Made by a program: the position numbers and the translations under genes. Below are positions 4,160 through 42,817 of a DNA stretch of 64,000 nucleotides, in pieces (position 1 is the stretch's first letter; the number at the start of each line of letters is the position of its first letter). Source of the stretch: Synechococcus sp. BL107 (GTDB lineage: Bacteria; Cyanobacteriota; Cyanobacteriia; PCC-6307; Cyanobiaceae); NCBI RefSeq assembly GCF_000153805.1, contig NZ_DS022298.1:628616-692615 (forward strand). Reading direction: 5' to 3'. The notes under the pieces were generated by a model, which worked only from the letters and a program-made list of their open reading frames with translations, made no database searches and was not told where the DNA came from.

Positions 4160-6151
4160 ATAGCCAAAGAAATTATCGAGAACTTTTTTGGTGTAATACC
4201 GCGTTTCTGGATAGGGAATGCGTTCTACCCACAGGGCAGGTGCATCGTTGAGGCCCTGCGTAGACCATGACCCCACAGCTCCAGGCCCAGCGTTGTAGCT
4301 GGCGATGCTTCGAAAGGGATCTCCCCGCCAATGCGAAAGCAGTTGCCGCAAGTAGGCGGCACCCAGTGCGGCGTTCTGCTTCGGCTCTCTGATTTCGTCC
4401 TCTGTAAGCGGGGCTTCAGCGACGTCTCTGGCGGTGGCGGGCATCAATTGCATCAGACCAATCGCTCCCGCAGTGGAGGTCACGCCTGACGAGAAGCGAG
4501 ATTCTTGTTTGCTCACAGCCAAGAGCAGCTCGAGAGGCAGCTGCTGCGCGCTCGCTGCTGGATGGAGGACCTCTTTAAAAATTTTCGGGTGCTGGCTGTG
4601 GTGGAGGTCGATTCGTTCACGGCAGCTAGCCGACCGCCAACGCAGGCTGAGCCACCGCAGTTGATCGAGAGCCATCCAACTGTCTCCAACCGCTAAGCGA
4701 AGCCTGCCTTCGACCAATTGTTCTGGTTTGGGTTGTGGGGTGTTGGGGTCGATCCCGCTGCGCCAAGTCTCCCAGGCCTGTCTCTTCAGCCCAAGACGCC
4801 AAAGCGTGTTGACGAAGGATTGAGCACTGTTTAAAGGGGCCCAAGACATCAGCTGCGATTGGGTTGGTGTTGGAGCTCCTGTCAGGTTTAGGGGTGTGGC
4901 GTCTCCAAGTGCTTCGCTCGCAAGCCAGTGGTAATAGCCAGGGGGGAACTGGCTGATTAGCAGCTGCCAGATCGTTCTGGCACGCTTTGGATCCCCCAGC
5001 TGTGCTTCGCTCCAGCCAAGCCAGTACAGCCGCCGGGTTTCCAGGGGATCGGGCAATGCTTGTGCGCTTGGTTCACGGGTCAGGATGGTTTTGGCTCGAT
5101 CCCAGTTCGCCGATAACAGGGCCTCTCTGGCAAGGTCCCATTGCAGTTGCCAGACGTCTGGATCATCCGGCCAGCGCTGCAGAACGTCCTCGCCACCCTC
5201 CCCGTTGGCTAGTCGAACGCGTGCTGCCGCCAGGGCCCCGGAACGATTTTGAACGGATACCGGAATGGCATCGAGCACCTCAGGCGAAGGTCGTACAGGT
5301 TCACTCAGTAGTCGCGCGGCTTCAACGCTGGCCGAAGCCTCCGGGAGATTACGCGTCAAGTTCAGGAGAAGTTCCGTCCCCTCTTCGGTATGTCCGCCTC
5401 GAAGTAAGGCTTGTCCAATCGCGAGTTGTGTGGAGGGTTCACTTGAAGGTTGGGAGGTTGACCCAGGTTGTTGGTGTTGAAGGCACTGCAGTGCTCCAGG
5501 GCCATCCCCAAGGCTGGCTAATCCCCGAGCAAGCCATTGGCGATCTTTTGTCGTTGGCGCGATTGAACTGTGGTCGTTGCATGCCTGGCTGATGCGCTTG
5601 AACGCACCTGGCCAACGCGCTCCCCAACGGGCAAGGTGAATCGCTCCCTGATAGCCGATTGTGGAATTTGGAACCATCGATTCCGCCACACTCAGCGCCG
5701 CAGGATGGCTTGGCTGTTTCTTCAGTAGGTCTTGATGCAGTGCTGGGTTTTGGTCCCCTAGAACGCGTCGAGCCGATGCGGATGCAGCTGAATGTGGGAA
5801 TCGTTTGAGCAGGTCGTCCCAGAGCTTCCGGGAATGGCTTTGGTCTCCCCGTCTGGTGGCCGTTTCCGCCTCGAGTTCTAGGGCCACCGCTCCGAGCGGG
5901 CTCGTTCCCCAAGCCTGGCTTTGCAAGACGTCGTAGGAGCCAGTTTGTGCAGCCATCAACAGCGCGGCTTCCCGGCGCTGCTGGGGATCGATCGCCCAGC
6001 GGTAGGTCGTCCAGAGTTGCGCTGCCGATCGATCCGGCGTTAGGGGCTGATGCCTCTCCACCAGAAATTTCTGCCCACCCCAGGCTGCAAAGCCACTGAG
6101 GGCGGTGGTCCCTATTAACAGAAGGGTCCCAAGTCGGGGGCCTGTGTTCAA
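4097..6151 (-). CDS. slt: soluble lytic murein transglycosylase (Slt family)
   Basis: A 684-residue periplasmic muramidase-like enzyme that cleaves peptidoglycan between MurNAc and GlcNAc with formation of 1,6-anhydroMurNAc. An N-terminal signal or anchor (LGTLLLIGTTALSGFAAWGG) is followed by a long helical repeat region of TPR type. The catalytic SLT domain fills the last 140 residues: SKQESRF carries the catalytic Glu (E550), followed by GAIGLMQLMPATA and SYNAGPGAV. The TPR-rich superhelical part plus C-terminal SLT domain is the Slt70 architecture. It faces glmM across a 261-base divergent region, a neighbourhood of cell-wall genes. The 3' end overlaps the plus-strand membrane-protein gene. 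Confidence 0.92.
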   Translation of the reverse strand: MNTGPRLGTLLLIGTTALSGFAAWGGQKFLVERHQPLTPDRSAAQLWTTYRWAIDPQQRREAALLMAAQTGSYDVLQSQAWGTSPLGAVALELEAETATRRGDQSHSRKLWDDLLKRFPHSAASASARRVLGDQNPALHQDLLKKQPSHPAALSVAESMVPNSTIGYQGAIHLARWGARWPGAFKRISQACNDHSSIAPTTKDRQWLARGLASLGDGPGALQCLQHQQPGSTSQPSSEPSTQLAIGQALLRGGHTEEGTELLLNLTRNLPEASASVEAARLLSEPVRPSPEVLDAIPVSVQNRSGALAAARVRLANGEGGEDVLQRWPDDPDVWQLQWDLAREALLSANWDRAKTILTREPSAQALPDPLETRRLYWLGWSEAQLGDPKRARTIWQLLISQFPPGYYHWLASEALGDATPLNLTGAPTPTQSQLMSWAPLNSAQSFVNTLWRLGLKRQAWETWRSGIDPNTPQPKPEQLVEGRLRLAVGDSWMALDQLRWLSLRWRSASCRERIDLHHSQHPKIFKEVLHPAASAQQLPLELLLAVSKQESRFSSGVTSTAGAIGLMQLMPATARDVAEAPLTEDEIREPKQNAALGAAYLRQLLSHWRGDPFRSIASYNAGPGAVGSWSTQGLNDAPALWVERIPYPETRYYTKKVLDNFFGYLGRDKRFCEPTLNGIGQDMP

Positions 6152-6412
6152 GCGGGTCCTGGCACTGCTGTCATTCTGTGGGTTCTAATCAGCGGGTTCT
6201 ACTCAGCGCAGTGATCCTGTCGTGTCATCCAGGGTGCTGGCAGCGAAGCCGCACCTGGTTGGCGGCGCTGGTTTTTGGAGTGGTGTGGGGGGTTTCTGAG
6301 TCTTCTGATTTGGATTGCACGAGAGCACATCGTTTTGCTTTGCCTCCCCGGTCCTTGGCGTTAGACCTATTGAAGGAGTGAGGGTGGCGTTTCCGTAATC
6401 TGCTCTCCACGA

Positions 6413-7816
6413 TTGACACCCATGGTTCAAGCGGCGTTTTCTCCTGCTGGTCCGACCCTTGGAGATGCCATCCCTGGTTTCGGGACTGATGGTATTCGCG
6501 GTCGCGTGGGCAGCGTCGTGACACCCGCCCTTTGCTTGCAAGTGGGTTACTGGGTTGGACGGGTGTTGGCCGTCGAGGGGCCTGTGTTGATCGGGATGGA
6601 TTCACGCACGAGCGGCAGCATGGTTGCGTCAGCGTTAACCGCTGGCCTCACCGCCGCTGGGCGTGAGGTGTGGAATCTGGGTTTGTGTCCTACCCCTGCC
6701 GTGCCGCTGTTGATCCGCAAGTTTGGAGCAGCAGGCGGTCTGATGGTTTCTGCGAGCCACAACCCACCAGCGGATAATGGCATCAAGGTGTTTGGAGCGA
6801 ACGGGGCGAAGTTGACCCCCGAGCGTCAGGCCCGGATCGAGGCTGGTCTGCGTGGTGAGATCGACCATTCCGACCATGACCACTCGATTTGTGGAGGCCT
6901 GCGGCAGAGCTCCGATCTCTTGTCGGATTATCGATCAATGCTTCTCTCTGCTGTTGGCACCCACCGACTCGACGGGGTTCCGATCGTGCTCGACCTTTGT
7001 TGGGGCTCTGCCACGGCTTGTGGGGCTGAAGCATTTCAGGCCCTTGGCGCTGATCTGACTGTTTTGCATGGTGAGCCCGATGGCTCCCGAATCAATGTGG
7101 GTTGTGGCTCAACGGCGTTAGGCCCCCTACGAGATGCTGTGAAAGATCGAGGCGCTGTGATGGGTTTTGCCTTTGATGGCGACGCGGATCGGATGTTGGC
7201 CGTGGATGGCAGCGGCCGGATCGTGGATGGCGATCACGTGATGTTCCTCTGGGGATCCGTGCTGCAGGACCAACACGCGTTAACCGATCAACGACTTGTT
7301 GCCACCGTGATGTCGAACCTTGGCTTTCAACGTGCGTGGGAAGAGCGGGGCGGCATCCTCGAGCGCACGCCTGTTGGAGACCAGCATGTCCATGCTGCGA
7401 TGGTGGCGAGTGGAGCCGCCCTTGGCGGAGAGCAATCGGGTCACATCCTTGCGGCATCCCATGGCCTATGTGGGGATGGGGTGCTGACCGCCTTGCAACT
7501 CTCCACCTTGTGTCATGCCCAGGGCATCACGCTGAGCGATTGGTTGGATCGCAGCTTTCAGCCTTTCCCGCAGAAGTTGGTGAATGTCACGGTGCAAAGC
7601 CAAACTCGACGCAAGCAGTGGTCCAGTTGTGAGCCACTCATGGCGGCGATCAGGTCTGCTGAGGAAACCATGGGCTCAGACGGCCGTGTTTTGGTGCGGG
7701 CGAGCGGCACGGAGCCCTTGGTGCGAGTGATGGTGGAGGCTGCTGATATGTCCCTTGTTGAATACTGGGCTAACCACCTGGCATCCGTAGTGGACCAATC
7801 CCTCAACGCTGCTTAA
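6413..7816 (+). CDS. glmM: phosphoglucosamine mutase
   Basis: This 467-residue alpha-D-phosphohexomutase converts glucosamine-6-phosphate to glucosamine-1-phosphate for UDP-GlcNAc synthesis. All four family loops are present: the phosphoserine loop VSASHNPPADNG (S115), the metal-binding loop FDGDADRM, the sugar-binding segment GEQSGH, and the phosphate-binding loop RASGTEPLVRV. The frame can start at a TTG (6413) or at an ATG three codons later (6422). The ATG is equally plausible and loses nothing conserved. The GTDGIRGRVG start of the fold lies about 20 residues in. Its 3' end overlaps the GlcNAc-kinase-like gene by 14 bases, tail to tail. Confidence 0.95.
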   Translation: MTPMVQAAFSPAGPTLGDAIPGFGTDGIRGRVGSVVTPALCLQVGYWVGRVLAVEGPVLIGMDSRTSGSMVASALTAGLTAAGREVWNLGLCPTPAVPLLIRKFGAAGGLMVSASHNPPADNGIKVFGANGAKLTPERQARIEAGLRGEIDHSDHDHSICGGLRQSSDLLSDYRSMLLSAVGTHRLDGVPIVLDLCWGSATACGAEAFQALGADLTVLHGEPDGSRINVGCGSTALGPLRDAVKDRGAVMGFAFDGDADRMLAVDGSGRIVDGDHVMFLWGSVLQDQHALTDQRLVATVMSNLGFQRAWEERGGILERTPVGDQHVHAAMVASGAALGGEQSGHILAASHGLCGDGVLTALQLSTLCHAQGITLSDWLDRSFQPFPQKLVNVTVQSQTRRKQWSSCEPLMAAIRSAEETMGSDGRVLVRASGTEPLVRVMVEAADMSLVEYWANHLASVVDQSLNAA

Positions 7817-8741
7817 CAACGCGTTCTTGGGCCATCACCAAAGCGCCGTGACAGGCATCACCTGCGGCCGGCATCCAGTGGCTGGATGGGAGAACGGTCT
7901 GAACTGCTGTTTTCACCAAACTGCTGAAGCCATCGAGATGCTCGAGGGCTCCACCATGGCCCACCAGATCTGGATGATCGAGCTGGAGCTTCATAGCCAC
8001 TGTGTGGATAGACGTCGCTAAGGCCAGGGCTGATCGCTCAAGAATGCAGCGGGCTTCGCCCAGTTCTTGCATCGCAGCTGCGGTGACAAAAGGGGCCAGC
8101 GCGGCAAAACCTGAAGCACCAAAGTTTGGCTGCACCACCTTGGCTTTCACTGCTGCGCTGGTTGTACAACCCAGGGCTGTCCAGATTTGGTTGCGCAATG
8201 GATGGTCGGGTCTCCTCCCATCTGCCATTTGGAGAGTCAGTTGAAGACCCTGGTGACCAATGTCAAAGGCTGAGCCAGCCCCATCCAACAGCCAGCCCCA
8301 CCCTCCGCAGCGATGCTCCATACCTTGATCAGTTCGCCCTAGGCAGATCATTCCCGTGCCACTGATCACAACGATGCCGGCATCGTTGGGGAAAGCGCCC
8401 CGTAGGGCCGTCCGTTCATCGCCGGTGGCCAGCACCTGAGGCGTTGGTAGGGCCAAGGTTTTGGCGAGTAGATCCGTTGCCTGCTCTTGGACGACGGATC
8501 CTTGCTCGATGCCGCTAGCGCCGATCACGGCACCATCGAGGGCTAAGTCCGGGTGATGATTCATCGCTTCCGAGCTACTACAGCGGATGGCTTCCCGGAA
8601 ACGCTCCACACCTCCGGCTGATGCCAGGTGAGAAACGCCGGGGCCATCACCATCACTGATCGGCTCCCAGCGACCGTCTTGCCAGCGACTGATTCGGCAA
8701 CGCGTCTTGGTTTGTCCGGCATCAAATCCTGCGAGCAGCAT
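7803..8741 (-). CDS. N-acetylglucosamine kinase-like protein (BadF/BcrA ATPase family)
   Basis: A 312-residue ASKHA-fold kinase. The phosphate-1 loop FDAGQTKTR sits at the very N-terminus, and later come GTGMICLGR, GGWGWLLDGAGSAFDIG and GHGGALEHLD, which match the N-acetylglucosamine kinase group of the BadF/BcrA/BcrD family. I place the start at the ATG at 8741 because it puts the phosphate loop at residue 6. It also overlaps the ictB stop by one base (TAATG); a longer frame to 8876 would run inside ictB. Position beside glmM suggests amino-sugar or cell-wall recycling, but the substrate is inferred. Confidence 0.82.
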   Translation of the reverse strand: MLLAGFDAGQTKTRCRISRWQDGRWEPISDGDGPGVSHLASAGGVERFREAIRCSSSEAMNHHPDLALDGAVIGASGIEQGSVVQEQATDLLAKTLALPTPQVLATGDERTALRGAFPNDAGIVVISGTGMICLGRTDQGMEHRCGGWGWLLDGAGSAFDIGHQGLQLTLQMADGRRPDHPLRNQIWTALGCTTSAAVKAKVVQPNFGASGFAALAPFVTAAAMQELGEARCILERSALALATSIHTVAMKLQLDHPDLVGHGGALEHLDGFSSLVKTAVQTVLPSSHWMPAAGDACHGALVMAQERVVKQR

Positions 8742-10069
8742 TACGCCTCCTTGGACTGATCGGTTTGGCTGGATAGGGTCGCTAGGGCAAACCAGCCAGT
8801 GAGTTGGACTTCCGGACGAAAGAAGATCGTGTCGGTGATGCCTTGCACCAACATTCCACTGATGGCAGCCAGGCAAGCAATGCCTGCTAAGGCTTCTGGG
8901 CGATCGAGGTGAAGGCTTGCCAAGCCTTTGCGCACTGCAGCATTGAGAAGTCCCAAGCAGGCAATTAGCCCTGGAACCCCCATCTCCACCAGGATCTCGA
9001 GGGGCACCGAATAGGCGCTGAGGGCGTTGAACTTGGGTTGCTGATACAGCGGATAAATACTGTTGAAGGCGGCATTGCCAGGACCAATGCCCAGCCAGGG
9101 ATGGTCGCGAACTATTTCAGCTGCAGCGAACCAAACATTGATGCGGAAATTGTTGGAGCTGTCCCCACGACCGGCCAGAAGACTGCTGATTCTTGTGCGG
9201 ATGGGCTCGAATTGAGTGGTGGCGACAACGAGCACAACAACACCAAGGAGTAAAACGGCTGGCGGGAGTAACCGTCGCCAGATCAACGGCCACGTTTGTG
9301 TGCTGCGCACCAAGAGCAAAAGCACAACAACGGCGAGGCCTGAGATCAGCCCTAACCAACCTCCGCGGCTGTAGGTGAGCACCGTGGCGACGGTGGTAAG
9401 CACCAAGGTGACACCTGCAAAGAGCCGACAACCAAAACCTTTCCAGCGCAATAGGGCGATCGCCGCGAACGGCAGTAAGGGCAGCAAGTAGCCGGCTAAA
9501 AGATTTGGGTTGCCCAGTGGTCCGTAGATCCGGATGGTGCCAGCACTCATGGAGTTCGGATCAGCCCAACCCGCCAGTTCTTCAGTGCTGGCATAAAGCT
9601 GCCTGAGAGCCAAAACACTGCTGAGGAGTCCACCACAGAGCAAGCCAGCCAGGAGGCGATCCCACCACCTCTGGTGATGGATCAGAAGCTTGTGAATCAA
9701 CGCAAATACCGTGAGGTAGCTCAGCAGTTTCAACAGTCCTTTTGTCGCTGCGATCGGTACAGGTGAAACCCCCGTGGCCAGAACGGCCACTCCCAAAATG
9801 ATCAGGAGCCAGGTTGTGATTTTTTCGATCGGAGCGGCTGGTGTAACGAGGCTCCAAATCACCCAGAGAAGGCCGCTGCTCAACATCAAAAGGGTCAGTC
9901 CCGAACGCGTGAAGAACGGCAGACCGCCGAGCAGAACGATCAAAAGACAGCCCGCTAACAGCTCCAATCTGTGCAAAGTGGCAGGGCTTGCCCTTAGGAG
10001 GCCCTGCCAGCGCGACAGCATTGGTATCGAGCGACTGGAGACATGACTGGACACATCCGTTGCGGGCAT
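8741..10069 (-). CDS. ictB: IctB-family O-antigen ligase-like membrane protein
   Basis: A 442-residue polytopic protein with about ten membrane segments and the Wzy_C/O-antigen ligase domain. The periplasmic-loop landmarks YGPLGNPNLLAGYLLPLLP, TYSRGGWLG and DHPWLGIGPGNAAFNSIYP are typical of cyanobacterial IctB. IctB was named for a proposed role in inorganic carbon accumulation, but its family is that of glycan polymerases and ligases. Here it is translationally coupled to a GlcNAc-kinase-like gene, with glmM and slt nearby, and that context favours a glycan role. It lies three bases downstream of the trmB stop, probably in one transcript. Confidence 0.88.
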   Translation of the reverse strand: MPATDVSSHVSSRSIPMLSRWQGLLRASPATLHRLELLAGCLLIVLLGGLPFFTRSGLTLLMLSSGLLWVIWSLVTPAAPIEKITTWLLIILGVAVLATGVSPVPIAATKGLLKLLSYLTVFALIHKLLIHHQRWWDRLLAGLLCGGLLSSVLALRQLYASTEELAGWADPNSMSAGTIRIYGPLGNPNLLAGYLLPLLPFAAIALLRWKGFGCRLFAGVTLVLTTVATVLTYSRGGWLGLISGLAVVVLLLLVRSTQTWPLIWRRLLPPAVLLLGVVVLVVATTQFEPIRTRISSLLAGRGDSSNNFRINVWFAAAEIVRDHPWLGIGPGNAAFNSIYPLYQQPKFNALSAYSVPLEILVEMGVPGLIACLGLLNAAVRKGLASLHLDRPEALAGIACLAAISGMLVQGITDTIFFRPEVQLTGWFALATLSSQTDQSKEA

Positions 10070-10072
10070 CCT

Positions 10073-10783
10073 TCAGGCTTCTGGCATTGGAGCACTACCT
10101 GGATTATCGATCTGCTGCCAGCGCTGCTCTAGCGCTTCGATGGGAGGTTGATTGGTGTGATTGCGACGGAAGAGCACCCGATACACGGGAAGCTGCTGAT
10201 CCATCACATAACGCTCCCGCTCAGTTGGCACCGATAACGGGTTCGTTTTGCGCCACGGGTGCGCATCACCGTCAGGGCGGTCGAAACAACCAGACAGTTC
10301 CGTGAGGATCACCATCGGATCAATCACCTCCCGCACATCACTCTGGATAAAAAAGTCTTTCCCGGGCTGAAGGGCCGAGGCGATTGCCATGAGGAGGCGG
10401 GGTTGCAAGACCCGCCGTTTGCGATGGCGTCGCTTGAACCAAGGGTCTGGAAACTGAATGGACACCCGCTGGAGGCGATCCTTGGGCAGTGTTTCCATCC
10501 ACCCTTCGAGGCTGATATTGGCGTTGCAAAACAACACCCGCACGTTCCCATGGGGGCTCTCAAGAGCTTCGCGATCGGCAGGGATCACCAAGGGGCGCCG
10601 AATTTCGACCCCAATGTGGTTCCAATCCGGATGACGGTCGGCCAAACCCAGAATGCATCGACCCCGTGCGCATCCGATGTCGAGATGGATCGGGTGCTCG
10701 GGGTGAGCGAATAGGTCGTTTGGTGGGGGCAACCGTAGAGGCAGCTGAAACGAACGACTGAGGGGATTGACGTGCTGTCGCAA
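10073..10783 (-). CDS. trmB: tRNA (guanine-N7-)-methyltransferase
   Basis: SAM-dependent methyltransferase that makes m7G46 in tRNA. The motifs are [16 protein letters not shown] (SAM loop), [11 protein letters not shown], and the TrmB-specific [20 protein letters not shown] conserved N-terminus in related picocyanobacteria begins at (M)RQHVNPLSR. Here that segment is preceded by TTG at 10783, four bases after the stop of the FIST gene, and I take this as the start (236 residues). An ATG at 10819 overlapping the FIST gene by 32 bases is the alternative, adding 12 residues. A still longer frame to 10903 would bury its start deep in the upstream gene and is unlikely. Confidence 0.9.
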
Positions 10784-16512: not shown

Positions 16513-16570
16513 GGTTCGACGATGCGAATCGCTTCCCCCATTCTGCGGCGCTCCTTAAAGTGTGTGAACT

Positions 16571-33604: not shown

Positions 33605-34684
33605 TCAACCGATTGCAGGTGCTTGGAGTGCCACAGGAGTGGACTCAGCAGCTGCCAGGTCGAGGGGGAAGTTGTGAGCGTTGCGCTCGTGCATGACTTC
33701 CATGCCGAGGCCTGCACGGTTCAACACGTCGGCCCAGGTGTTCAGGACGCGGCCCTGACCATCAAGGATGGACTGGTTGAAGTTGAAGCCGTTGAGGTTG
33801 AAGGCCATGGTTGACACGCCAAGGGCGGTGAACCAGATGCCGACAACAGGCCAGGCAGCCAGGAAGAAGTGGAGGCTACGGCTGTTGTTGAAGGAGGCGT
33901 ATTGGAAGATCAGGCGACCGAAGTAGCCGTGAGCAGCCACGATGTTGTACGTCTCTTCTTCTTGGCCGAATTTGTAGCCGTAGTTCTGGGACTCGCTTTC
34001 GGTGGTTTCACGCACCAAGGAGGAGGTCACCAGTGAGCCGTGCATGGCGGAGAACAAGCTGCCGCCGAAGACGCCTGCAACACCCAGCATGTGGAAGGGG
34101 TGCATCAGGATGTTGTGCTCAGCCTGGAACACCAACATGTAGTTGAAGGTTCCAGAGATGCCCAGGGGCATTGCATCAGAGAACGAACCCTGACCGAAGG
34201 GGTAGACGAGGAAGACTGCAGATGCAGCAGCGACAGGTGCGCTGTAGGCAACACAGATCCAAGGGCGCATGCCCAAGCGGTAAGAGAGTTCCCACTCACG
34301 ACCCATGTAGGCGTAGATGCCGATGAGGAAGTGGAAAACGACGAGCTGGAAAGGACCGCCGTTGTACAGCCACTCGTCGAGTGAAGCTGCTTCCCAGATG
34401 GGATAGAAGTGCAGGCCGATGGCGTTGCTGGAAGGAACAACAGCACCAGAGATGATGTTGTTGCCGTACATCAAGGAGCCAGCGACAGGCTCGCGGATGC
34501 CATCGATGTCAACCGGAGGAGCGGCGACGAAAGCGATGACGAAGCAGATGGTGGCAGCCAACAGAGTTGGGATCATCAGCACACCGAACCAACCGACATA
34601 CAGACGGTTGTTGGTGGAGGTGACCCACTCGCAGAAGGACTGCCAGCTAGAAGCGCCGGAGCGCTGCTGGATGGTGGTGGTCAT
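33605..34684 (-). CDS. psbA: photosystem II D1 protein, copy 1 (D1:2 type)
   Basis: A 359-residue D1 reaction-centre protein with five membrane helices. Key residues are all present: Y161, D170, E189, H190, H198, H215, H252, S264, H272, H332, E333, H337, D342 and A344, after which the C-terminal extension is cut off by CtpA. Residue 130 is Glu, the form linked with high-light D1:2 in Synechococcus. The start ATG at 34684 is the normal one; an in-frame extension to 34816 is just leader sequence. The protein is identical to copy 2. Its promoter region is unrelated to that of copy 2, so expression probably differs. Confidence 0.98.
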
Positions 34685-34731
34685 GAGAACGGAAAACAGC
34701 CTGTGGGTCGAAACCCGGCGGCGAATAAGAA

Positions 34732-34749
34732 AGGTCGGAGAACCGACTT
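34732..34749 (-). promoter_or_regulatory. hairpin at predicted 5' end of psbA copy 1 mRNA
   Basis: On the minus strand AAGTCGG and CCGACCTT arms enclose a TTCT loop, giving a stem of about seven pairs (one GU). It begins five bases after the TACATT hexamer, so it would sit at the very start of the transcript. A second small stem, GGG-TTTCGA-CCC, follows closer to the gene (34705-34716). Confidence 0.6.
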
Positions 34750-34753
34750 GCGA

Positions 34754-34759
34754 AATGTA
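34754..34759 (-). promoter_or_regulatory. candidate -10 element of psbA copy 1
   Basis: TACATT on the minus strand, ending 70 bases before the ATG. Seventeen bases further upstream is GTGACG, a weak -35 match. The same TACATT occurs 67 bases before the ATG of copy 2, although the rest of the leader differs. Confidence 0.5.
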
Positions 34760-34828
34760 ACGGAAGTTTGCGAAGCCGTCACCGATTGGCCGCTGAGCCT
34801 TTCTGATCGCTCCCATCAGCTCCGCTGA

Positions 34829-36355
34829 TCACCGCCCCGTTCCTCGCAGCTCTTCCGCTTGGCTGGCGCTGATTCGTTTCGCTCCTTCCAGTACTTCGCT
34901 AATGGTTTCCAGGCTCAGCACGGCTTGGATGTTGAGCCCCTTGTCATTGAGTCGTTCTTTAGCTCGGGTGTCTTGCAGGCCGCCATGGTCCAGGAAAACC
35001 ACAACGTCGTTCACTTTCAGGCCAGATGATTCGAGCTTTGCGATGCCTTCCAGCACGCTTCCGCCGGTGATCAAGATGTCGTCGACCACCGCCACGGTTT
35101 CGCCCTCATTGAATTCGCCCTCCACTAGTCGCCGTGTGCCATGGGCCTTTACTTCTTTGCGTGGATAGATCAGTGGCTTATGGAGTTGAAGCGATAGGCC
35201 AGTGGCGGTGGGCAATGAGCCATAAGGAATCCCAGCAATACGATCAAACTTGAGAGTTCGTAAAACTTGGGCATAACAATCCAGAACGCGATGGAATAAA
35301 GCCGGATCTGAAATAATTTGGCGTAAATCCACGTAATAATTGAATATTGCTCCGCTGGCTTGTTCAAATTCACCAAATAAGAGGCATTTGATATCGAATA
35401 AATCGATGACGAGCTCTCTTAAATCTTTTTCGATTGCTATTTGTTCGATTTTGGTTTGTTCAGTTGCGTTGGCTTGATTGTTGTGGGGCCAGATTCGACA
35501 TTGTTCCGTCGGCTGTTGGCTCAAAATCTCGAGCTGAGTGTTGAGGTGCTCTTCCCTAATTGCATTGATACGAGTTTTGAGAGCAGCGGTCTGACCATTG
35601 ATGTCACTCTCATTGAGCAAGCTTTGGGGGAGTGGGAGAAGTAGCCCATCCCCAGCTTGGTTGAGGCCACTCTCGAGAAGCCGTTGCAGATTGCCTTCTT
35701 CTCCCCAGAGGGAGCGCAGCATCACAAATCGTTCTGGGGCGGCCTGGCGGACGCGTTTCAGAATGTCTGGATCGCTGGTGCCAACTTCTAATAGGAGTTG
35801 ATCCACTGTTCCCCAGCGCTGGCTTTCGCGAACCACTTGTAAGTAAAACGGTTCGTTTTCATTGGGATAGTGCTGCAGAACTTTCGCTGCGGGATTGGAG
35901 CTATGGCAGTTGATCACGACTCCTTTGCCTGGATACAGCAAAAAAGGAGCAGCGATGTCTTGTCCTGCAATCGGATTGAGGGTGACGGCGTCAGCTTGCA
36001 GCGTTTGAAAGAGGTAAGAGGCAATAGCGCTTGAGCTATTCAGATCGCCATGTTTGATATCAATAATCAGAGGAAGGTCATGCGGAAGTAGTTCACGCAC
36101 TTCCACCATCAGCTCCACTCCAGCTGCCCCCATGGCTTGATAAAAACCAAGGCTTGGTTTGTAGGCGCAGACGTGATCTGCGGTGGATTCGATGACCGAT
36201 TTGCACCAGGACCGAGCCTGACTCAAGAGTGAGCTTCCGCCTAAGCCCCGAGACGTTGCCCAGCTCCGCAGCATTTCAGGGTTGGGGTCAAGACCAGTTA
36301 CCAGAAGAGATGATCTGCTGGTCATGGCCTCGGTGAGTGCCGTGAAAAAACCCAT
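34829..36355 (-). CDS. pyrFE: single-chain orotidine-5'-phosphate decarboxylase/orotate phosphoribosyltransferase (PyrF-PyrE)
   Basis: A 508-residue fusion doing the last two steps of UMP synthesis. The N-terminal half is OMP decarboxylase: VTGLDPNPE, the catalytic D-x-K-xx-D array in IIDIKHGDLNSSS, and later VEVG and the GDGLLLP phosphate end. The C-terminal half is orotate phosphoribosyltransferase with the PRPP motif VAVVDDILITGGS and YPRKEVKAHG. The order decarboxylase-then-transferase is the reverse of animal UMP synthase and matches fusions known in cyanobacteria and trypanosomatids. The linker region (about 35200-35650) is AT-rich compared with both ends. I start at ATG 36355; ATG 36364 adds three residues. 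It lies between the two psbA copies. Confidence 0.93.
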   Translation of the reverse strand: MGFFTALTEAMTSRSSLLVTGLDPNPEMLRSWATSRGLGGSSLLSQARSWCKSVIESTADHVCAYKPSLGFYQAMGAAGVELMVEVRELLPHDLPLIIDIKHGDLNSSSAIASYLFQTLQADAVTLNPIAGQDIAAPFLLYPGKGVVINCHSSNPAAKVLQHYPNENEPFYLQVVRESQRWGTVDQLLLEVGTSDPDILKRVRQAAPERFVMLRSLWGEEGNLQRLLESGLNQAGDGLLLPLPQSLLNESDINGQTAALKTRINAIREEHLNTQLEILSQQPTEQCRIWPHNNQANATEQTKIEQIAIEKDLRELVIDLFDIKCLLFGEFEQASGAIFNYYVDLRQIISDPALFHRVLDCYAQVLRTLKFDRIAGIPYGSLPTATGLSLQLHKPLIYPRKEVKAHGTRRLVEGEFNEGETVAVVDDILITGGSVLEGIAKLESSGLKVNDVVVFLDHGGLQDTRAKERLNDKGLNIQAVLSLETISEVLEGAKRISASQAEELRGTGR

Positions 36356-36493
36356 GGCTCTCATGGATGATTGAGACCAGATTGCGATGTTATTTGGCTG
36401 AATATCGCTCTACATCCATCAATTGAATCAATTGCCATTGATGTTGTTGGTCGTTTGGTAGGAGGCTGTCGATTGAGATCAAGTAAGCGTCAA

Positions 36494-36524
36494 CAAAAAG
36501 CCCCCGCTGTGAGGCGGGGGCTTT
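36494..36524 (-). terminator. intrinsic terminator of psbA copy 2
   Basis: Same 9-bp GC-rich stem and T-rich tail as behind copy 1, part of the repeated unit. Since it lies upstream of pyrFE on the same strand it should keep psbA copy 2 transcription out of pyrFE. Confidence 0.93.
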
Positions 36525-36582
36525 GCGATTCAGTTGATCTGAATCGTTTTGTCTGTTCCAGAAGGAACAGGTTGATTCCAGA

Positions 36583-37662
36583 TCAACCGATTGCAGGTGC
36601 TTGGAGTGCCACAGGAGTGGACTCAGCAGCTGCCAGGTCGAGGGGGAAGTTGTGAGCGTTGCGCTCGTGCATGACTTCCATGCCGAGGCCTGCACGGTTC
36701 AACACGTCGGCCCAGGTGTTCAGGACGCGGCCCTGACCATCAAGGATGGACTGGTTGAAGTTGAAGCCGTTGAGGTTGAAGGCCATGGTTGACACGCCAA
36801 GGGCGGTGAACCAGATGCCGACAACAGGCCAGGCAGCCAGGAAGAAGTGGAGGCTACGGCTGTTGTTGAAGGAGGCGTATTGGAAGATCAGGCGACCGAA
36901 GTAGCCGTGAGCAGCCACGATGTTGTACGTCTCTTCTTCTTGGCCGAATTTGTAGCCGTAGTTCTGGGACTCGCTTTCGGTGGTTTCACGCACCAAGGAG
37001 GAGGTCACCAGTGAGCCGTGCATGGCGGAGAACAAGCTGCCGCCGAAGACGCCTGCAACACCCAGCATGTGGAAGGGGTGCATCAGGATGTTGTGCTCAG
37101 CCTGGAACACCAACATGTAGTTGAAGGTTCCAGAGATGCCCAGGGGCATTGCATCAGAGAACGAACCCTGACCGAAGGGGTAGACGAGGAAGACTGCAGA
37201 TGCAGCAGCGACAGGTGCGCTGTAGGCAACACAGATCCAAGGGCGCATGCCCAAGCGGTAAGAGAGTTCCCACTCACGACCCATGTAGGCGTAGATGCCG
37301 ATGAGGAAGTGGAAAACGACGAGCTGGAAAGGACCGCCGTTGTACAGCCACTCGTCGAGTGAAGCTGCTTCCCAGATGGGATAGAAGTGCAGGCCGATGG
37401 CGTTGCTGGAAGGAACAACAGCACCAGAGATGATGTTGTTGCCGTACATCAAGGAGCCAGCGACAGGCTCGCGGATGCCATCGATGTCAACCGGAGGAGC
37501 GGCGACGAAAGCGATGACGAAGCAGATGGTGGCAGCCAACAGAGTTGGGATCATCAGCACACCGAACCAACCGACATACAGACGGTTGTTGGTGGAGGTG
37601 ACCCACTCGCAGAAGGACTGCCAGCTAGAAGCGCCGGAGCGCTGCTGGATGGTGGTGGTCAT
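36583..37662 (-). CDS. psbA: photosystem II D1 protein, copy 2 (D1:2 type)
   Basis: A second 359-residue D1 protein with the same sequence as copy 1, including Glu130 and every cofactor ligand listed there. Coding sequence and 3' region are also identical at the nucleotide level as far as I can read. Only the upstream region is its own: a TACATT hexamer 67 bases before the ATG and a different hairpin-bearing leader. Having two genes for the same D1:2 protein would raise synthesis capacity when D1 turnover is fast. It is divergent from the B12-radical SAM gene (182 bases between starts). Confidence 0.98.
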
Positions 37663-37734: not shown

Positions 37735-37844
37735 AAGCAATATTGAGTTCTGTGTTCGGAGCTTTACGAAGCATTTGTAAAGAGGCGAGTCACGCTGCTA
37801 GCGGATGCGCTTGTTAGCGTCCCAAATGCCACGCTGCAGCCGCT

Positions 37845-39422
37845 TTGTCTCCACAACCGGAACGCGTGCTGTTCGTGCGGCTTCCATGCAACCCAATTTT
37901 CCCGATCGGCCCGGTTTATCTGGCAGATCATTTGCACAAGTGTTTTCCGGAGATGCCGCAACGCATCCTGGATTTGGCTGCTCTGCCTGTACTGGACGTA
38001 CAGAGAGTGTTGCTAGCCACGGTGGATCAGTTTCGCCCCACTTTGTTGGTGTTTTCTTGGCGGGATATTCAGATTTACGCCCCGGTTGACGGTCGAGGGG
38101 GCAACCCTCTTCAAAACTCTTTCGAAGTCTTTTACGCCCGCAATCCACTCAAGCGTCTTCACGGCGCTCTTGGTGGCTTGCGATTGATGACCAGCCATTA
38201 CGGCGAGCTGCATCGCAATCAATCACTGGTGCACAAGGGCCTCTCCCATGCGCGTCGTCACCATCCCGGGGCGCGTGCCGTTCTTGGTGGTGGGGCTGTC
38301 AGTGTGTTTTACGAACAGCTCGGTAAGTCGTTGCCGAAAGGAACGATTGTTTCGATTGGCGAGGGAGAACCTCTCTTAGAAAAATTGCTCCAAGGACAGT
38401 CCCTCGAGGGAGAACGTTGTTTTTTGGTCGGTGAGTCACCCCGCTCAGGCTTGATCCATGAGCAGCCGGAGAGTCGACCTAAAACCGCTTGCGATTACGA
38501 CTACATCGCTTCCATTTGGCCCCAACTCAACTGGTACCTGGAGGGTGGTGATTTCTATGTGGGCGTTCAGACCAAACGTGGCTGTCCGCACAACTGTTGT
38601 TACTGCGTCTACACCGTGGTGGAAGGTAAACAGGTGCGCCTCAATCCAGTGCAGGAGGTGGTGAAGGAGATGCGCCAGCTTTACGACCGCGGTGTGAGGG
38701 GGTTTTGGTTTACCGATGCCCAGTTCATCCCAGCTCGGCGGTATATCGAAGACGCCAAGGAGCTGCTACGTGCGATCAAAGCCGAAGGGCTGACTGGAAT
38801 TCGTTGGGCGGCTTACATCCGAGCCGACAATCTCGATCCCGAGTTAGCCCAGCTCATGGTGGAGACGGGCATGAGTTATTTCGAGATCGGTATTACCTCC
38901 GGTTCTCAAGAGCTCGTTCGCAAGATGCGCATGGGATACAACCTGCGGACGGTGCTGGAGAGTTGCCGCATGCTTGCTGATGCAGGCTTTCGCGATCACG
39001 TGTCGGTGAATTATTCCTTCAATGTGATTGATGAGAGGCCGGAAACGATTCGACAGACCGTTGCTTATCACCGTGAGCTAGAAAACATTTTTGGTGCCGA
39101 TTTAGTCGAGCCAGCGATTTTCTTCATTGGCTTGCAGCCCCATACGCATCTTGAGCAATACGGTTTCGATCAAGGCTTGATCAAGCCTGGTTACAACCCG
39201 ATGAGCATGATGCCTTGGACGGCGCGGAAGCTTCTTTGGAATCCTGAGCCGATGGGGAGCACATTTGGACGTGTTTGCTTGGAAGCGTTTGATCGAAATG
39301 CCGATGATTTTGGCAGGACCGTTATGTCTTTTCTCGAGCGGGATTATGGCGTTGCACCCCTTCAAGAAGCCTTAAGAGCTCCAGTCGAGGGCAAGAAAGC
39401 GATTGCTAAAGCAATTGTTTGA
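37845..39422 (+). CDS. B12-binding-domain radical SAM protein
   Basis: A 525-residue protein. The N-terminal 200 residues form a Rossmann-like domain of the cobalamin-binding type (VLFVRLPCNPIFPIGPVYLA, then VLGGGAVSVFYE and SIGEGEPLLEKLL), without an obvious DxHxxG cobalamin ligand. The radical SAM core follows with its 4Fe-4S cysteines C247, C251 and C254 in RGCPHNCCYC. Relatives include BchE-type cyclases and methyltransferases, so a modification of a tetrapyrrole, lipid or hopanoid-like substrate is possible, but none is shown. It is divergent from psbA copy 2. A decayed fragment resembling residues 465-498 lies at 41824-41922. Confidence 0.85.
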   Translation: MSPQPERVLFVRLPCNPIFPIGPVYLADHLHKCFPEMPQRILDLAALPVLDVQRVLLATVDQFRPTLLVFSWRDIQIYAPVDGRGGNPLQNSFEVFYARNPLKRLHGALGGLRLMTSHYGELHRNQSLVHKGLSHARRHHPGARAVLGGGAVSVFYEQLGKSLPKGTIVSIGEGEPLLEKLLQGQSLEGERCFLVGESPRSGLIHEQPESRPKTACDYDYIASIWPQLNWYLEGGDFYVGVQTKRGCPHNCCYCVYTVVEGKQVRLNPVQEVVKEMRQLYDRGVRGFWFTDAQFIPARRYIEDAKELLRAIKAEGLTGIRWAAYIRADNLDPELAQLMVETGMSYFEIGITSGSQELVRKMRMGYNLRTVLESCRMLADAGFRDHVSVNYSFNVIDERPETIRQTVAYHRELENIFGADLVEPAIFFIGLQPHTHLEQYGFDQGLIKPGYNPMSMMPWTARKLLWNPEPMGSTFGRVCLEAFDRNADDFGRTVMSFLERDYGVAPLQEALRAPVEGKKAIAKAIV

Positions 39423-39441
39423 TACTTATTCTTGAGAGACA

Positions 39442-40086
39442 ATGATTTCATACGATAAACGTTGCATTTTTATTCATATTCCCAAGTGTGGTGGCACTTC
39501 AATTGAAAATGTAATTTGGCCGCATCCTGAAGATCTCACCGAGGCAAATCTATGGTGGGGTTTTGTCTCTCAGTATCACAATAAATATCAAACAGGAGGA
39601 TTGCAGCATCTTCTTGCTCGTCAAGTTCGTTCAGAGGTTGGTTTGGAAATTTTCAACTCTTTTTATAAATTTACTATTGTCAGAAATCCCTGGGATCGAA
39701 TCGTTTCACAATTTGCCTATATGCAAACCAGGCCAGATCTCATGGATTTTATTGGAATGCAACCAGACACAGAATTTAAGGCCTATTTAGGCTTAATTCA
39801 AAAAAAACAGCATGTGCAATGGATGCCTCAGACTGATTTCATTTTGGATCAAGATGGAACATTATTAGTTGATAAGATTGGGCGTCTCGAAAACATAGAA
39901 AAAGACTCTCATGAAGTTTTTGATATCCTTGGTGTTTGTAGGGAGCAGACTAAAAATTTTCATGCCAATCGATCAGAAAGAAAAAGTATTGATCATTATT
40001 ATGATCAAGAGTCTATTGAAATGGTGGGCGAAATCTACTCAAGTGATATTAATTATTTGAATTATAGTTTTGATTCGATAGCTTGA
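39442..40086 (+). CDS. sulfotransferase-family protein
   Basis: A 214-residue protein with both PAPS-binding motifs of the sulfotransferase fold: the 5'-phosphosulfate loop HIPKCGGTS at residues 12-20 and the 3'-phosphate motif RNPWDRIVSQF from residue 81. This is the Sulfotransfer_2 type, which transfers sulfate from PAPS to a hydroxyl or amine, often on sugars. The gene is strongly AT-rich compared with its neighbours, uses many AAT, TTT and ATT codons, and probably came by transfer. It converges on a sulfatase gene with 16 bases between stops. The acceptor is unknown. Confidence 0.85.
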   Translation: MISYDKRCIFIHIPKCGGTSIENVIWPHPEDLTEANLWWGFVSQYHNKYQTGGLQHLLARQVRSEVGLEIFNSFYKFTIVRNPWDRIVSQFAYMQTRPDLMDFIGMQPDTEFKAYLGLIQKKQHVQWMPQTDFILDQDGTLLVDKIGRLENIEKDSHEVFDILGVCREQTKNFHANRSERKSIDHYYDQESIEMVGEIYSSDINYLNYSFDSIA

Positions 40087-40102
40087 AAGTTCTCTTAGGG
40101 AT

Positions 40103-41515
40103 TTAGTTCCATGGGCTTTTCCAGCAAACTGAAGACCCTAAGCCAGTTTTTTTAACATGTTCACTAAGTCGAAACTGCTCAATGATTTGATGGCTCGTTT
40201 GGAACCTGTCCCCAGTCACTTTGAGTTTCTGGTGAAGGAGGTCGTCTAAATCTGTTAGTAATCCGTTTGCATTGTTCGATGATTGTATGAGATTATCTTT
40301 TTGATAGGGATCATTGTAGTTGTCAAATAAAAGCCAAGGTCCCTGCTCATTCCGTACGTAGGTATGTCGCATGGTTCGAACTCCGCGATAGGCCTTCATT
40401 CCGTAAAGTTGTAATGGACCGGAACAAACTGCTGCATTGAGTAGGCCTACATCTGTATCGCTCAGGGTTTCTTCCCCGCGAATGACTGGAGCCCAATTGC
40501 GTCCTTCTGTATGACTACTTTGTTTAAGATTGGCAAGCCCAAGTAAAGTGGGCATGACATCTGGCGCATCAATCGGTGCATCACATGTTGTGCCGGCTTG
40601 ATGTTGAAGATCAGGATCTCGAAGGACGAATGGAATTCGAACTGATTCTTCAAATGGATAAAGTTTTCGTGTTAATCCTTGGCTGAATAACATGTCTCCA
40701 TGGTCTGAAGTCACAACCACAAGTGTGTTCTTCTCCAGTGCGCTCCTCTTTAAGCACTTCATGATTATTTTTAGACATCGATCCAGTGCTGATATGTGAG
40801 AGTAATAACCACGCAATTGATTGTGTGCTTTTTCTTGATGCTCTTCGGGTACATTTTCTGGAATTTTAATGTCTATTTCTTTGTATAAATCTTTAAATTT
40901 ATCTGGGGCTGTGTGATAAGGATCATGGGGCGGGCCCCATGAGAGCATTAATAAAAATGGTTGGCTTTTGGATGAAAACTTTTTAATTAATTTTCGAGCC
41001 ATTTTTGTCTGAGCGAAAGCATCATATCCATCCCAAGTTTGCTGCGTAGTATGATTATTTAAATAGTATGGTGATTGATTATAATTGTGATTACACTCAT
41101 TGCCCTGCCAATAATCAAACCCTAGCCTATATTGACTGGGTATTGGAGAATTTCGATGATCAAATCCCCCGCTAGGTGAGCCGTAGACATGCCATTTCCC
41201 GATGTATGCAGTTTTATAGCCATTTGATTTGAAGGCTTCAGCAATTGAGTTATGCCTGGGTGAAAGGGTTGAATCGTTAACGAGGACGCCATGGCTTAGT
41301 GGATAAAGTCCTGTTAATAATGAGCCTCGATAGGGTGAGCATTGGGAGCATCCAGAAATGGCATTTCTAAAATTTATCCCTTGATTTTTTAGCTTATCTA
41401 GACTTGGCGTCAGGCATTGTGAAATATCGGGTGTGCCACGCCATTGGTCTGCGAAAATAAAAATAATATTTTTTAGTGAAGGCGTCGTTGCCACATCTCT
41501 AATATTGGCTGTCAC
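40103..41515 (-). CDS. type I (formylglycine) sulfatase
   Basis: A 470-residue alkaline-phosphatase-fold sulfatase. The metal-binding start is IFADQWRG (D23, Q24). The cysteine to be converted to formylglycine is C59 in CSPYRGSLLTG, fitting C-x-P-x-R although Tyr at the fourth place is uncommon. IGKWH, WGPPHDPYH and TSDHGDM supply further active-site residues. No signal peptide is seen, so a cytoplasmic location is likely. It hydrolyses a sulfate ester, but the substrate cannot be read. A formylglycine-generating enzyme is not in the window. Base composition is AT-rich as in the neighbouring sulfotransferase gene. Confidence 0.9.
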   Translation of the reverse strand: MTANIRDVATTPSLKNIIFIFADQWRGTPDISQCLTPSLDKLKNQGINFRNAISGCSQCSPYRGSLLTGLYPLSHGVLVNDSTLSPRHNSIAEAFKSNGYKTAYIGKWHVYGSPSGGFDHRNSPIPSQYRLGFDYWQGNECNHNYNQSPYYLNNHTTQQTWDGYDAFAQTKMARKLIKKFSSKSQPFLLMLSWGPPHDPYHTAPDKFKDLYKEIDIKIPENVPEEHQEKAHNQLRGYYSHISALDRCLKIIMKCLKRSALEKNTLVVVTSDHGDMLFSQGLTRKLYPFEESVRIPFVLRDPDLQHQAGTTCDAPIDAPDVMPTLLGLANLKQSSHTEGRNWAPVIRGEETLSDTDVGLLNAAVCSGPLQLYGMKAYRGVRTMRHTYVRNEQGPWLLFDNYNDPYQKDNLIQSSNNANGLLTDLDDLLHQKLKVTGDRFQTSHQIIEQFRLSEHVKKTGLGSSVCWKSPWN

Positions 41516-41823
41516 GAGTCTATGGCATGAATGTGAAGCATATGTTCGTTCGCGTAAATCAATAAGGACGACTCTCTGATTGTGCGCGAATAATCCTTGC
41601 TCATGTCATCCACTCCTGCTTTTGCTTGGTCTTCGCAGTATCAAGGAATGAGCTATGTTTTGTATTTTTCAAGTAAAGCCTAGATTATAGTTTTGTGATA
41701 GAGCCAAGCATTGGCTAGAAGAGATTCATTTTAATATTAGTTTGGCTTCAAATATCTTCGCTGTTTCTTTCTTCTAGAGCAGTCGTCTGCAGTTATAAAG
41801 CTTCGATCTGGTCTTCATCAAGC
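41516..41823. other. gene-free AT-rich stretch beyond the sulfatase gene
   Basis: Part of the only stretch over 300 bases without an intact gene (41516-41935). It should hold the sulfatase promoter, though I see no convincing pair of hexamers. Short frames here are full of stops. A short segment near 41698 reads VIEPSIG in the plus frame and could be a further trace of the radical SAM relative (its counterpart reads LVEPAI), but this match alone is too short to trust. No terminator, tRNA or repeat is seen. Confidence 0.5.
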
Positions 41824-41922
41824 TGGGATCCAGACGCGATGGGCCAAGGCTTAAGGGCTTTGTCTGGAAGCTTGTTTCGTGCCCATGGAGATTTTGGACG
41901 CACGGTGATGGAGTTGTTCGAG
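41824..41922 (+). pseudogene. remnant of the 3' end of a radical SAM gene
   Basis: In the plus frame this stretch reads WDPDAMGQ and, further on, HGDFGRTVMELFE. The same arrangement is found near the end of the B12-radical SAM protein at 37845-39422: WNPEPMGS (from residue 465) and then ADDFGRTVMSFLE, with the same distance give or take one residue. Upstream the frame loses similarity and soon meets a stop; downstream it runs into the end of the CPBP gene. It is best explained as the leftover 3' end of a second, diverged copy of that gene. Confidence 0.6.
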
Positions 41923-41935
41923 CTATTTCTCCTTC

Positions 41936-42817
41936 TTAGGAGGCGTTGCGATGTTCAGTTTTGGTGAATAGGGATTTGTTGAAAGCCGTTCGCTGAAGCC
42001 AGAGCAACAATGTCAGGGCGCTAATTGCGACAAGTCCACCCATCGGATTGGGATTGCTTCCGCCCGGTCCGATCAGCCATGCAGGGGCGTCTGCAGACAG
42101 TAGAAGAGCGTTTTTCTCCAGGAGAAACCAGCCGCTGATCAAGCCGCCATGTAAGCCAACACATCCCCAAAGCGAGCCATGGTCGAGCCGGCGACGCAGG
42201 GCCAGGACCAGGCCCAAGAGGAATAGCCCGCTGAGGAGCCCCAACATTGGCCAGACACCCATGTTGAAACGGGCGTGAACAAGGCTAAAAATCGCAGCCT
42301 GACTGATGACTCCAGCTTTCGCTCCAAGCAGGCGGTTCAGCTCCTGCCAAAGCCAACCACGAAAGAGTATTTCTTCAGCCAACCCAACACCGAATAACAG
42401 CACGAATGCATCCAGCAGAAGGCGAACTGAGTCTGTTCTTTGGAACTGTGCCCAATGTCCCAGTAGCAGCGGCAGCATGATCAGTGCGAGCAGAAGGACT
42501 GACCACAACAGCCCGCGTAAGAGGACTGCAAAAGATGATCGCTGATGAGCCTCCATGCCTCGGAGCCCTAAAGCAACCCAGGGTCGCTTGATCTGCCAGC
42601 GCAATCTGATCCAGCGTGGCATCAGTAGGAGAAACAGCAGAAAGCTGAATACTGTCCCGACCAGCGAAACAGCACTAGTGGGCAACCCCACCAACGTGAG
42701 CAGTTGGGCTTTGCTCCAGCCGATCAGGTACAAAACTGGAATCAAGACGAACACCGGAAGCCAACGCGGGGTTAGCAGGATCAGCCAATTCAGCCCGGCG
42801 TTGATGGTGCGGATCAA
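41936..42817 (-). CDS. CPBP-family intramembrane metalloprotease
   Basis: A 293-residue polytopic protein with the Abi/CPBP domain. The family motifs are EEILFRGWLWQEL (catalytic Glu-Glu and Arg), HARFN and the late VGLHGG histidine. About seven membrane segments are visible. Members are related to type II CAAX prenyl endopeptidases (Rce1) but most bacterial ones have unknown substrates. The frame starts with TTG at 42817, directly adjoining the clpS stop (TGA TTG), which implies coupling with clpS. It ends close to the radical SAM remnant. Confidence 0.85.
   Translation of the reverse strand: MIRTINAGLNWLILLTPRWLPVFVLIPVLYLIGWSKAQLLTLVGLPTSAVSLVGTVFSFLLFLLLMPRWIRLRWQIKRPWVALGLRGMEAHQRSSFAVLLRGLLWSVLLLALIMLPLLLGHWAQFQRTDSVRLLLDAFVLLFGVGLAEEILFRGWLWQELNRLLGAKAGVISQAAIFSLVHARFNMGVWPMLGLLSGLFLLGLVLALRRRLDHGSLWGCVGLHGGLISGWFLLEKNALLLSADAPAWLIGPGGSNPNPMGGLVAISALTLLLWLQRTAFNKSLFTKTEHRNAS

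Follow-up and report, generated by a model that had tools for sequence, protein, structure and literature searches.

The window, the whole 64-kb stretch of DNA analysed here, contains a short islet made up of two convergent genes: a sulfotransferase gene (ST; 39442–40086, plus strand, 214 aa) and a Cys-type sulfatase gene without a leader (40103–41515, minus strand, 470 aa). Their stop codons face each other across 16 bases, as the initial annotation had described, and both genes look intact and both lack a leader. Upstream of the sulfatase lies an AT-rich spacer (41516–41785), defined by its sequence and assigned to no strand. The islet is walled on the left by an slr0320-type radical-SAM gene (37845–39422, plus strand) and on the right by a gene for a CPBP (Rce1-like) intramembrane protease (41936–42817, minus strand; PF02517, 50.4 bits). 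Between the spacer and the protease gene, and extending into the latter, is an insertion scar, the degraded remains of a duplicate radical-SAM 3′ end, detected with nhmmer (41786–41996, plus strand). This decayed 3′ end, at about 41786–41996, is the right edge of the feature, which is therefore wider than first drawn.

The AT-richness noticed at the outset was borne out by measurement. GC content over 39423–41785 is 0.395, against a mean of 0.559 (sd 0.017, minimum 0.524) for same-size windows elsewhere in the 64 kb; since every other such window reaches at least 0.524, the dip lies far beyond the local range. The surroundings had been described as a core photosynthesis neighbourhood. This holds for the left flank, which carries psbA (36583–37662, by our assignment) and the radical-SAM gene, the latter matching NF045585, ‘photosystem II high light acclimation radical SAM protein’, with 975 bits. 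It does not hold for the right flank, where the CPBP-type protease gene is followed by genes that we take to be clpS and dapL. Further to the left, at 33605–37662, two psbA copies with an identical C-terminus flank a 511-aa gene, which we take to resemble a pyrF/pyrE fusion; both copies align to one single psbA of the relative G001.

ST starts 19 nt after the radical-SAM gene and the sulfatase gene lies downstream of the CPBP gene, placing them in separate transcription units. In the window the sulfatase and CPBP genes are separated by 420 bp, part of the scar included; in the two other genomes that carry the pair (G014 and G021) there is no such gap, the start of the sulfatase gene overlapping the stop of CPBP. 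Scans of the region for promoters and terminators gave scores at shuffle level only. Among ORFs of at least 80 aa lying wholly inside the islet there are only ST and the sulfatase, with no integrase or recombinase gene, and no tRNA or tmRNA gene stands at the islet border, the window’s only tRNA genes being at 16570 and 24134.

The opposite chemistry originally proposed for the two products is upheld by their Pfam assignments (PF03567 and PF00884), which predict a sulfotransferase and a sulfatase. ST matches PF03567, Sulfotransfer_2, with an E-value of 1.3e-15 and 58.7 bits (cut-off 22). It contains the motifs IHIPKCGGTS and VRNPWDRIVS, presumably the PAPS-loop motifs (5′-PSB and 3′-PB), and R81 and S89 are invariant in an alignment of 33 homologues. 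The structure model (pLDDT 91.3) has a sulfotransferase fold. It scored Z 11.3 and 10.8 against heparan-sulfate 6-O/2-O sulfotransferases and 10.1 against a SULT; small-molecule SULTs thus come within about 1 Z of the heparan-sulfate enzymes, which is a tie. The best Foldseek match of the model reached only E 0.013, and a PDB sequence search with ST returned no sulfotransferase. The whole window genome (G000; 2.285 Mb, single contig, 99.93% complete) has four PF03567 matches, a count of this one sulfotransferase family. ST matches were found in 3 of 50,697 phage records, at 27–29% identity. On the marine viral contig L258, five ST-profile ORFs occur in one stretch (4425–10323) beside genes resembling glycan functions; an ORF of this contig is 44% identical to ST over residues 1–210.

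The sulfatase matches PF00884, Sulfatase, with an E-value of 2.8e-49 and 168.5 bits (cut-off 25), and more weakly PF01663, type I phosphodiesterase. In an alignment of 31 rows, D23, Q24, P61, R63, K107, H109, H197, H272 and K284 are invariant, residues which we take to be metal/sulfate ligands, while C59 and D271 are kept in at least 90% of the rows. The C-x-P-x-R signature, CSPYR at C59 in the window, is intact in all three carriers (G000, G014 and G021). The model of the protein (pLDDT 86.1) is nearest to chondroitin/dermatan endo-4-O-sulfatases over its whole length (Foldseek E 3.3e-34). The reported lack of a signal peptide was confirmed by inspection: the N-termini of the three homologues start right before the domain. 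Because it is leaderless, the sulfatase probably acts on a cytoplasmic substrate, as judged from its sequence.

In a scan of genome contigs, the nearest sulfatases outside Synechococcus, at 79 of the 80 loci compared (from 109 found), are 40–48% identical and belong to Planctomycetota, Bacteroidota, Lentisphaerae, Hydrogenedentota and others. A crude pattern recognised a hydrophobic N-terminal stretch in 61 of 81 relative sulfatase ORFs, a set that includes that of G014 itself; several of the N-termini look twin-arginine, and some of the 20 relatives lacking the stretch have over-long predicted starts. Viral contigs scanned with sulfatase peptide patterns gave no match, and the sulfatase matches in 30 phage records are all below 60% identity, the ten listed being at 24–30%. 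The window genome also encodes a second Cys-type sulfatase (L116 6075–9346, genome C1 about 274–277 kb), with CVPAR and no evident signal peptide. It sits in an AT-rich stretch among sulfotransferase-like and glycosyltransferase-like genes, as named from reading.

A full-length radical-SAM gene is present in 27 of 34 genomes of the genus, and the sites to its right were compared in all 27, the window’s included. The ST–sulfatase pair occupies three of them (G000, G014 and G021), which makes the presence of this foreign-looking islet patchy. Four others (G001, G010, G013 and G022) hold a different protein of 560–733 aa on the opposite strand, and 20 hold no gene. At 16 of the 27 the radical-SAM and CPBP genes share 52 bp at their 3′ ends, and four geneless sites (G003, G005, G007 and G029) have gaps of 56–410 bp. 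Three of these gaps cannot accommodate an ORF of 60 aa, and the longest, the 410 bp of G029, has none lying entirely inside it; the 166-bp gap of G007 contains no clear remnant of the pair. Identity between the window CPBP and its 26 relatives does not exceed 69%, and the adjoining walls are 85–98% identical.

Pfam detects TPR repeats in three of the four alternative proteins and none in that of G010, which contains unread bases. The C-terminal part of these TPR-type proteins resembles the sulfotransferase family in profile–profile comparison (probability 93.4, E 2.5e-7, 166 columns), a result that was significant with the 33-row ST alignment and not with a three-row one. They also have sequence motifs resembling both presumed PAPS loops. 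The Pfam sulfotransferase match is under the cut-off in two of the four and silent in the other two, so the likeness is a distant one. A sulfotransferase or sulfotransferase-like domain is therefore carried at 7 of 7 filled sites, although these do not represent seven independent events, because the four TPR-type proteins may go back to a single origin. The view that the site is an exchangeable sulfotransferase slot, with the islet as one of its alleles, is well supported, as is its anatomy with the scar. As for the left wall of the slot, a Synechocystis slr0320 mutant is described as growing poorly in high light (PMC8065906). If the slot is indeed swapped together with its walls, it would offer a clean natural experiment on sulfation in an abundant ocean phototroph.

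The scar was found with a profile of the radical-SAM 3′ end, which located a second copy at 41823–41996 (E 2.8e-8) and a weak piece from 41786 (E 0.044). With a profile that left out the window’s own gene it scored 27.4 bits, whereas 2000 dinucleotide shuffles gave no more than 2.4; the part outside CPBP alone scored 18.7 bits, the shuffles no more than 1.9. The best 8 of 27 local alignments show 71–82% identity over 118–188 aligned bases. The last 61 bases of the scar lie under the CPBP 3′ end, and the scar ends at the position of the CPBP/radical-SAM overlap in the 16 insert-free genomes. The profile search was required, since a blastn comparison of the radical-SAM ends with the gap next to each returned only a weak piece of the scar (E 0.09). 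At the other 26 sites no scar copy was detected (best E 1.1), which confines it to the window genome. For the six other genomes with a filled site, the alignment of CPBP breaks off 18–28 residues before the end.

At ClpS and DapL the nearest relative of the window genome is G001 (97–98%). DNA identity between the two is about 98–100% in psbA, falls to 71–85% across the radical-SAM gene (200-base bins), is lost in the islet and CPBP, which are unalignable, and returns to about 90% from 42813. The radical-SAM tree pairs G001 with G013 and leaves G000 outside (support 0.97), while the CPBP tree pairs G000 with G007 (0.999). The collapse of identity over radical-SAM gene, islet and CPBP, together with these trees, therefore indicates that a block at 37750–42813 (the left border being approximate) was replaced as a unit by homologous recombination. 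This replacement took place in one of the lineages, most simply in that of G000. Patchy presence, odd composition and conflicting trees of the surrounding genes, the marks of a horizontally exchanged islet, all occur here. In the simplest insertion history, incoming DNA would have recombined in the radical-SAM gene by flanking homology, and the resident radical-SAM 3′ end would have been displaced to the far side, surviving as a decayed relic. The whole block may later have been exchanged between lineages by homologous recombination, in what we infer to be the order of events.

Both genes are under purifying selection, as coding-sequence comparison shows. Between G014 and G021, dN/dS is 0.24 for ST, 0.11 for the sulfatase and 0.05 for the radical-SAM gene, and dS is 0.49, 0.59 and 0.52, respectively. 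Since the dS values agree, the pair is about as old as the radical-SAM wall in these two genomes. A recent gain by the window strain alone is ruled out, ST dS being close to radical-SAM dS in all pairs of G000, G014 and G021; for G000 against the other two, dS is 1.38–1.41 for ST and 1.53–1.55 for the radical-SAM gene, the sulfatase being saturated. Both profiles were run on 400 genomes of the family, sampled from a larger group. With the sulfatase profile three genomes reach 1003 bits or more and the runner-up 107.5; with the ST profile these same three reach 435 bits or more and the runner-up 79.4. High-scoring ST or sulfatase alone was found in 0 of the 400. This co-occurrence could reflect hitch-hiking, because just three genomes carry the pair.

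The best single reading of the locus, put forward tentatively, is that the leaderless pair acts as a cytoplasmic writer and eraser of glycan sulfation housed in an exchangeable slot. The two proteins would work in one compartment. ST would use PAPS to sulfate a cytoplasmic glycan intermediate, such as a lipid-linked repeat unit awaiting export. The sulfatase, most of whose relatives elsewhere seem to bear signals for export, would take that sulfate off, so that the pair would set the amount of sulfate reaching the cell surface. Such a function is suggested by the linkage of the genes, their leaderless N-termini and the resemblance of the modelled folds; a shared substrate is suggested by co-occurrence, and we infer its glycan nature and the regulatory role. 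Cyanobacterial sulfotransferase genes occur for the most part within clusters for exopolysaccharides, and the synthesis of repeat units takes place on the cytoplasmic side (PMC8205485). The substrate had been guessed to be either a sulfated surface sugar or a sulfated signal or toxin-like compound. The sugar is favoured, because the folds are nearest those of glycosaminoglycan (GAG) endo-4-O-sulfatases and of heparan-sulfate sulfotransferases, the latter tied with SULTs; nothing was found to favour a signal or toxin. Against the writer and eraser reading, no glycan-assembly gene stands next to the pair among the window ORFs.

It is less likely, though worth serious weight, that these are two unrelated accessory genes brought in by one entry event, ST decorating a surface glycan and the sulfatase scavenging or detoxifying small cytoplasmic sulfate esters, with no common substrate. 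Their separate transcription units, one behind the radical-SAM gene and one behind CPBP, would suit this. So would the finding that a search with the ST profile at the 80 loci of the sulfatase relatives matches L118 alone, which is G014 itself; since no other of these loci has ST, the pairing is not ancient. However, the tail-to-tail pair has been kept at one site over about 35–39% protein divergence, both genes show dN/dS well below 1, and neither occurs alone at high score in the 400 family genomes. An origin of ST in a marine virus, with the slot serving phage-receptor variation, is very improbable. The slot is polymorphic among close relatives, and the best ST relatives found outside the three carriers, in searches whose bacterial genomes were those of the family, are viral (44%, L258), some of them clustered, with as many as five such ORFs in one stretch. 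However, 40 viral loci contain no sulfatase, no viral contig carries the sulfatase peptide patterns, and the islet ORFs include no evident integrase or other phage gene.

The preferred writer and eraser reading supposes an active sulfatase, and this raises the question of how its cysteine is matured. The expectation that a sulfatase-activating enzyme would be encoded elsewhere in the genome failed, no formylglycine-generating enzyme (FGE) and no anSME being recognised in the complete window genome. The initial annotation had coupled the absence of such an enzyme with a dead active site as grounds for refutation; the absence was found, but the active-site residues are kept. As an FGE candidate, the sole PF03781 match was rejected: it is EgtB (TIGR03440, 507 bits), adjoins EgtD, and is without the C-terminal Cys pair, presumably catalytic, that is present in the FGE-type proteins of other strains. 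This EgtB beside EgtD (L115 7203–9346, genome C1 about 0.241 Mb) represents the ergothioneine pathway. The sole TIGR03942 match was likewise rejected as an anSME, being GrrM (TIGR04261, 610 bits; anSME only 163 bits, cut-off 349) with a GrrP-type protein nearby. Here (L117 47–2634, genome C1 about 2.054 Mb) a GrrM radical-SAM/SPASM maturase and GrrP enclose a Gly/Ala-rich ORF, as in a GRRM-type peptide system.

Across the genus, PF03781 reaches at least 240 bits in 4 of 34 genomes (G006, G018, G021 and G030), and in each the FGE-type gene adjoins a sulfatase of about 800 aa with a lipoprotein-like or Sec-like N-terminus. The roughly 400-aa PF03781 matches of relatives were called EgtB by length and score, the TIGR03440 check being made on that of the window genome alone. 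Some sulfatase match occurs in 11 genus genomes, none of which (0 of 11) has an anSME above the cut-off, and seven of the 11 also lack a 240-bit FGE. Only three of these seven genomes (G000, G004 and G020) are assembled as single contigs with a completeness of 99% or more, and C-x-P-x-R is intact in each. G004 is a weak case, having an FGE-like domain (92.5 bits) inside a 2214-aa protein; such domains in giant proteins occur in G004, G005, G009 and G018. G014 carries the pair without an FGE, which is weak evidence because its genome is 87% complete, and G021 has both the pair and an FGE.

A third sulfatase-maturation system was reportedly proposed by Benjdia et al. in 2007 from E. coli aslB/ydeM deletion mutants. 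It is conceivable, though on balance doubtful, that selection maintains leaderless Cys-type sulfatases in marine Synechococcus genomes where neither FGE nor anSME is recognisable; these would either be matured by a hypothetical third system of the aerobic cytoplasm or work naturally with an unmodified cysteine, and one of them would here serve an intracellular writer and eraser pair housed in the exchangeable slot. With its two Cys-type sulfatases and no known maturase, this complete genome would be a compact place to seek such a system. More improbable again is a sulfatase without formylglycine, or one acting on phosphate or phosphonate esters, that is, a slow or promiscuous hydrolase with little to do with sulfation. 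The lack of a recognised FGE or anSME in a complete genome and the weaker PF01663 match point that way, and unmodified choline sulfatase retains slow multiple turnover (PMC6189696). Against it, the top fold matches are polysaccharide sulfatases, C-x-P-x-R is intact in all three carriers, and G021 has the pair plus an FGE. The paper on choline sulfatase also states that E. coli modifies such cysteines by machinery that had not been identified when it was written (PMC6189696).

Titles and the beginnings of abstracts in the literature searched hold no description of the ST–sulfatase pair or of the slot, subscription papers having been mostly outside reach. Several known systems are nevertheless comparable in part. 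The xss/synechan system of Synechocystis 6803 likewise comprises cyanobacterial sulfotransferase genes whose products probably act on cytoplasmic glycan intermediates (PMC8205485). Glycosyltransferases, Wzx/Wzy and regulators belong to that system, whereas the islet, located beside psbA, combines a single sulfotransferase with a sulfatase and lacks assembly genes. The GAG endo-4-O-sulfatases of Bacteroides and relatives (PDB 6j66, 6s21 and 8di0) share with the islet sulfatase the whole-length fold, at a TM score of about 0.8, and the signature; the islet sulfatase is only 26–28% identical to them, and the Synechococcus proteins are without an export signal. The FGE-linked sulfatases of G006, G018, G021 and G030 belong to the same superfamily and have the cysteine C-x-P-x-R, but they are about 800 aa long, with a lipoprotein- or Sec-like N-terminus and an FGE neighbour, none of which applies to the islet sulfatase. 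Finally, the small flexible islets and genomic islands of marine picocyanobacteria consist, like this islet, of patchy, AT-rich, laterally exchanged genes that lie between conserved ones. Unlike such islets in general, the one described here has one fixed junction, sulfotransferase-type cargo in every filled case (seven of seven) and, as its scar, a duplicated gene end.
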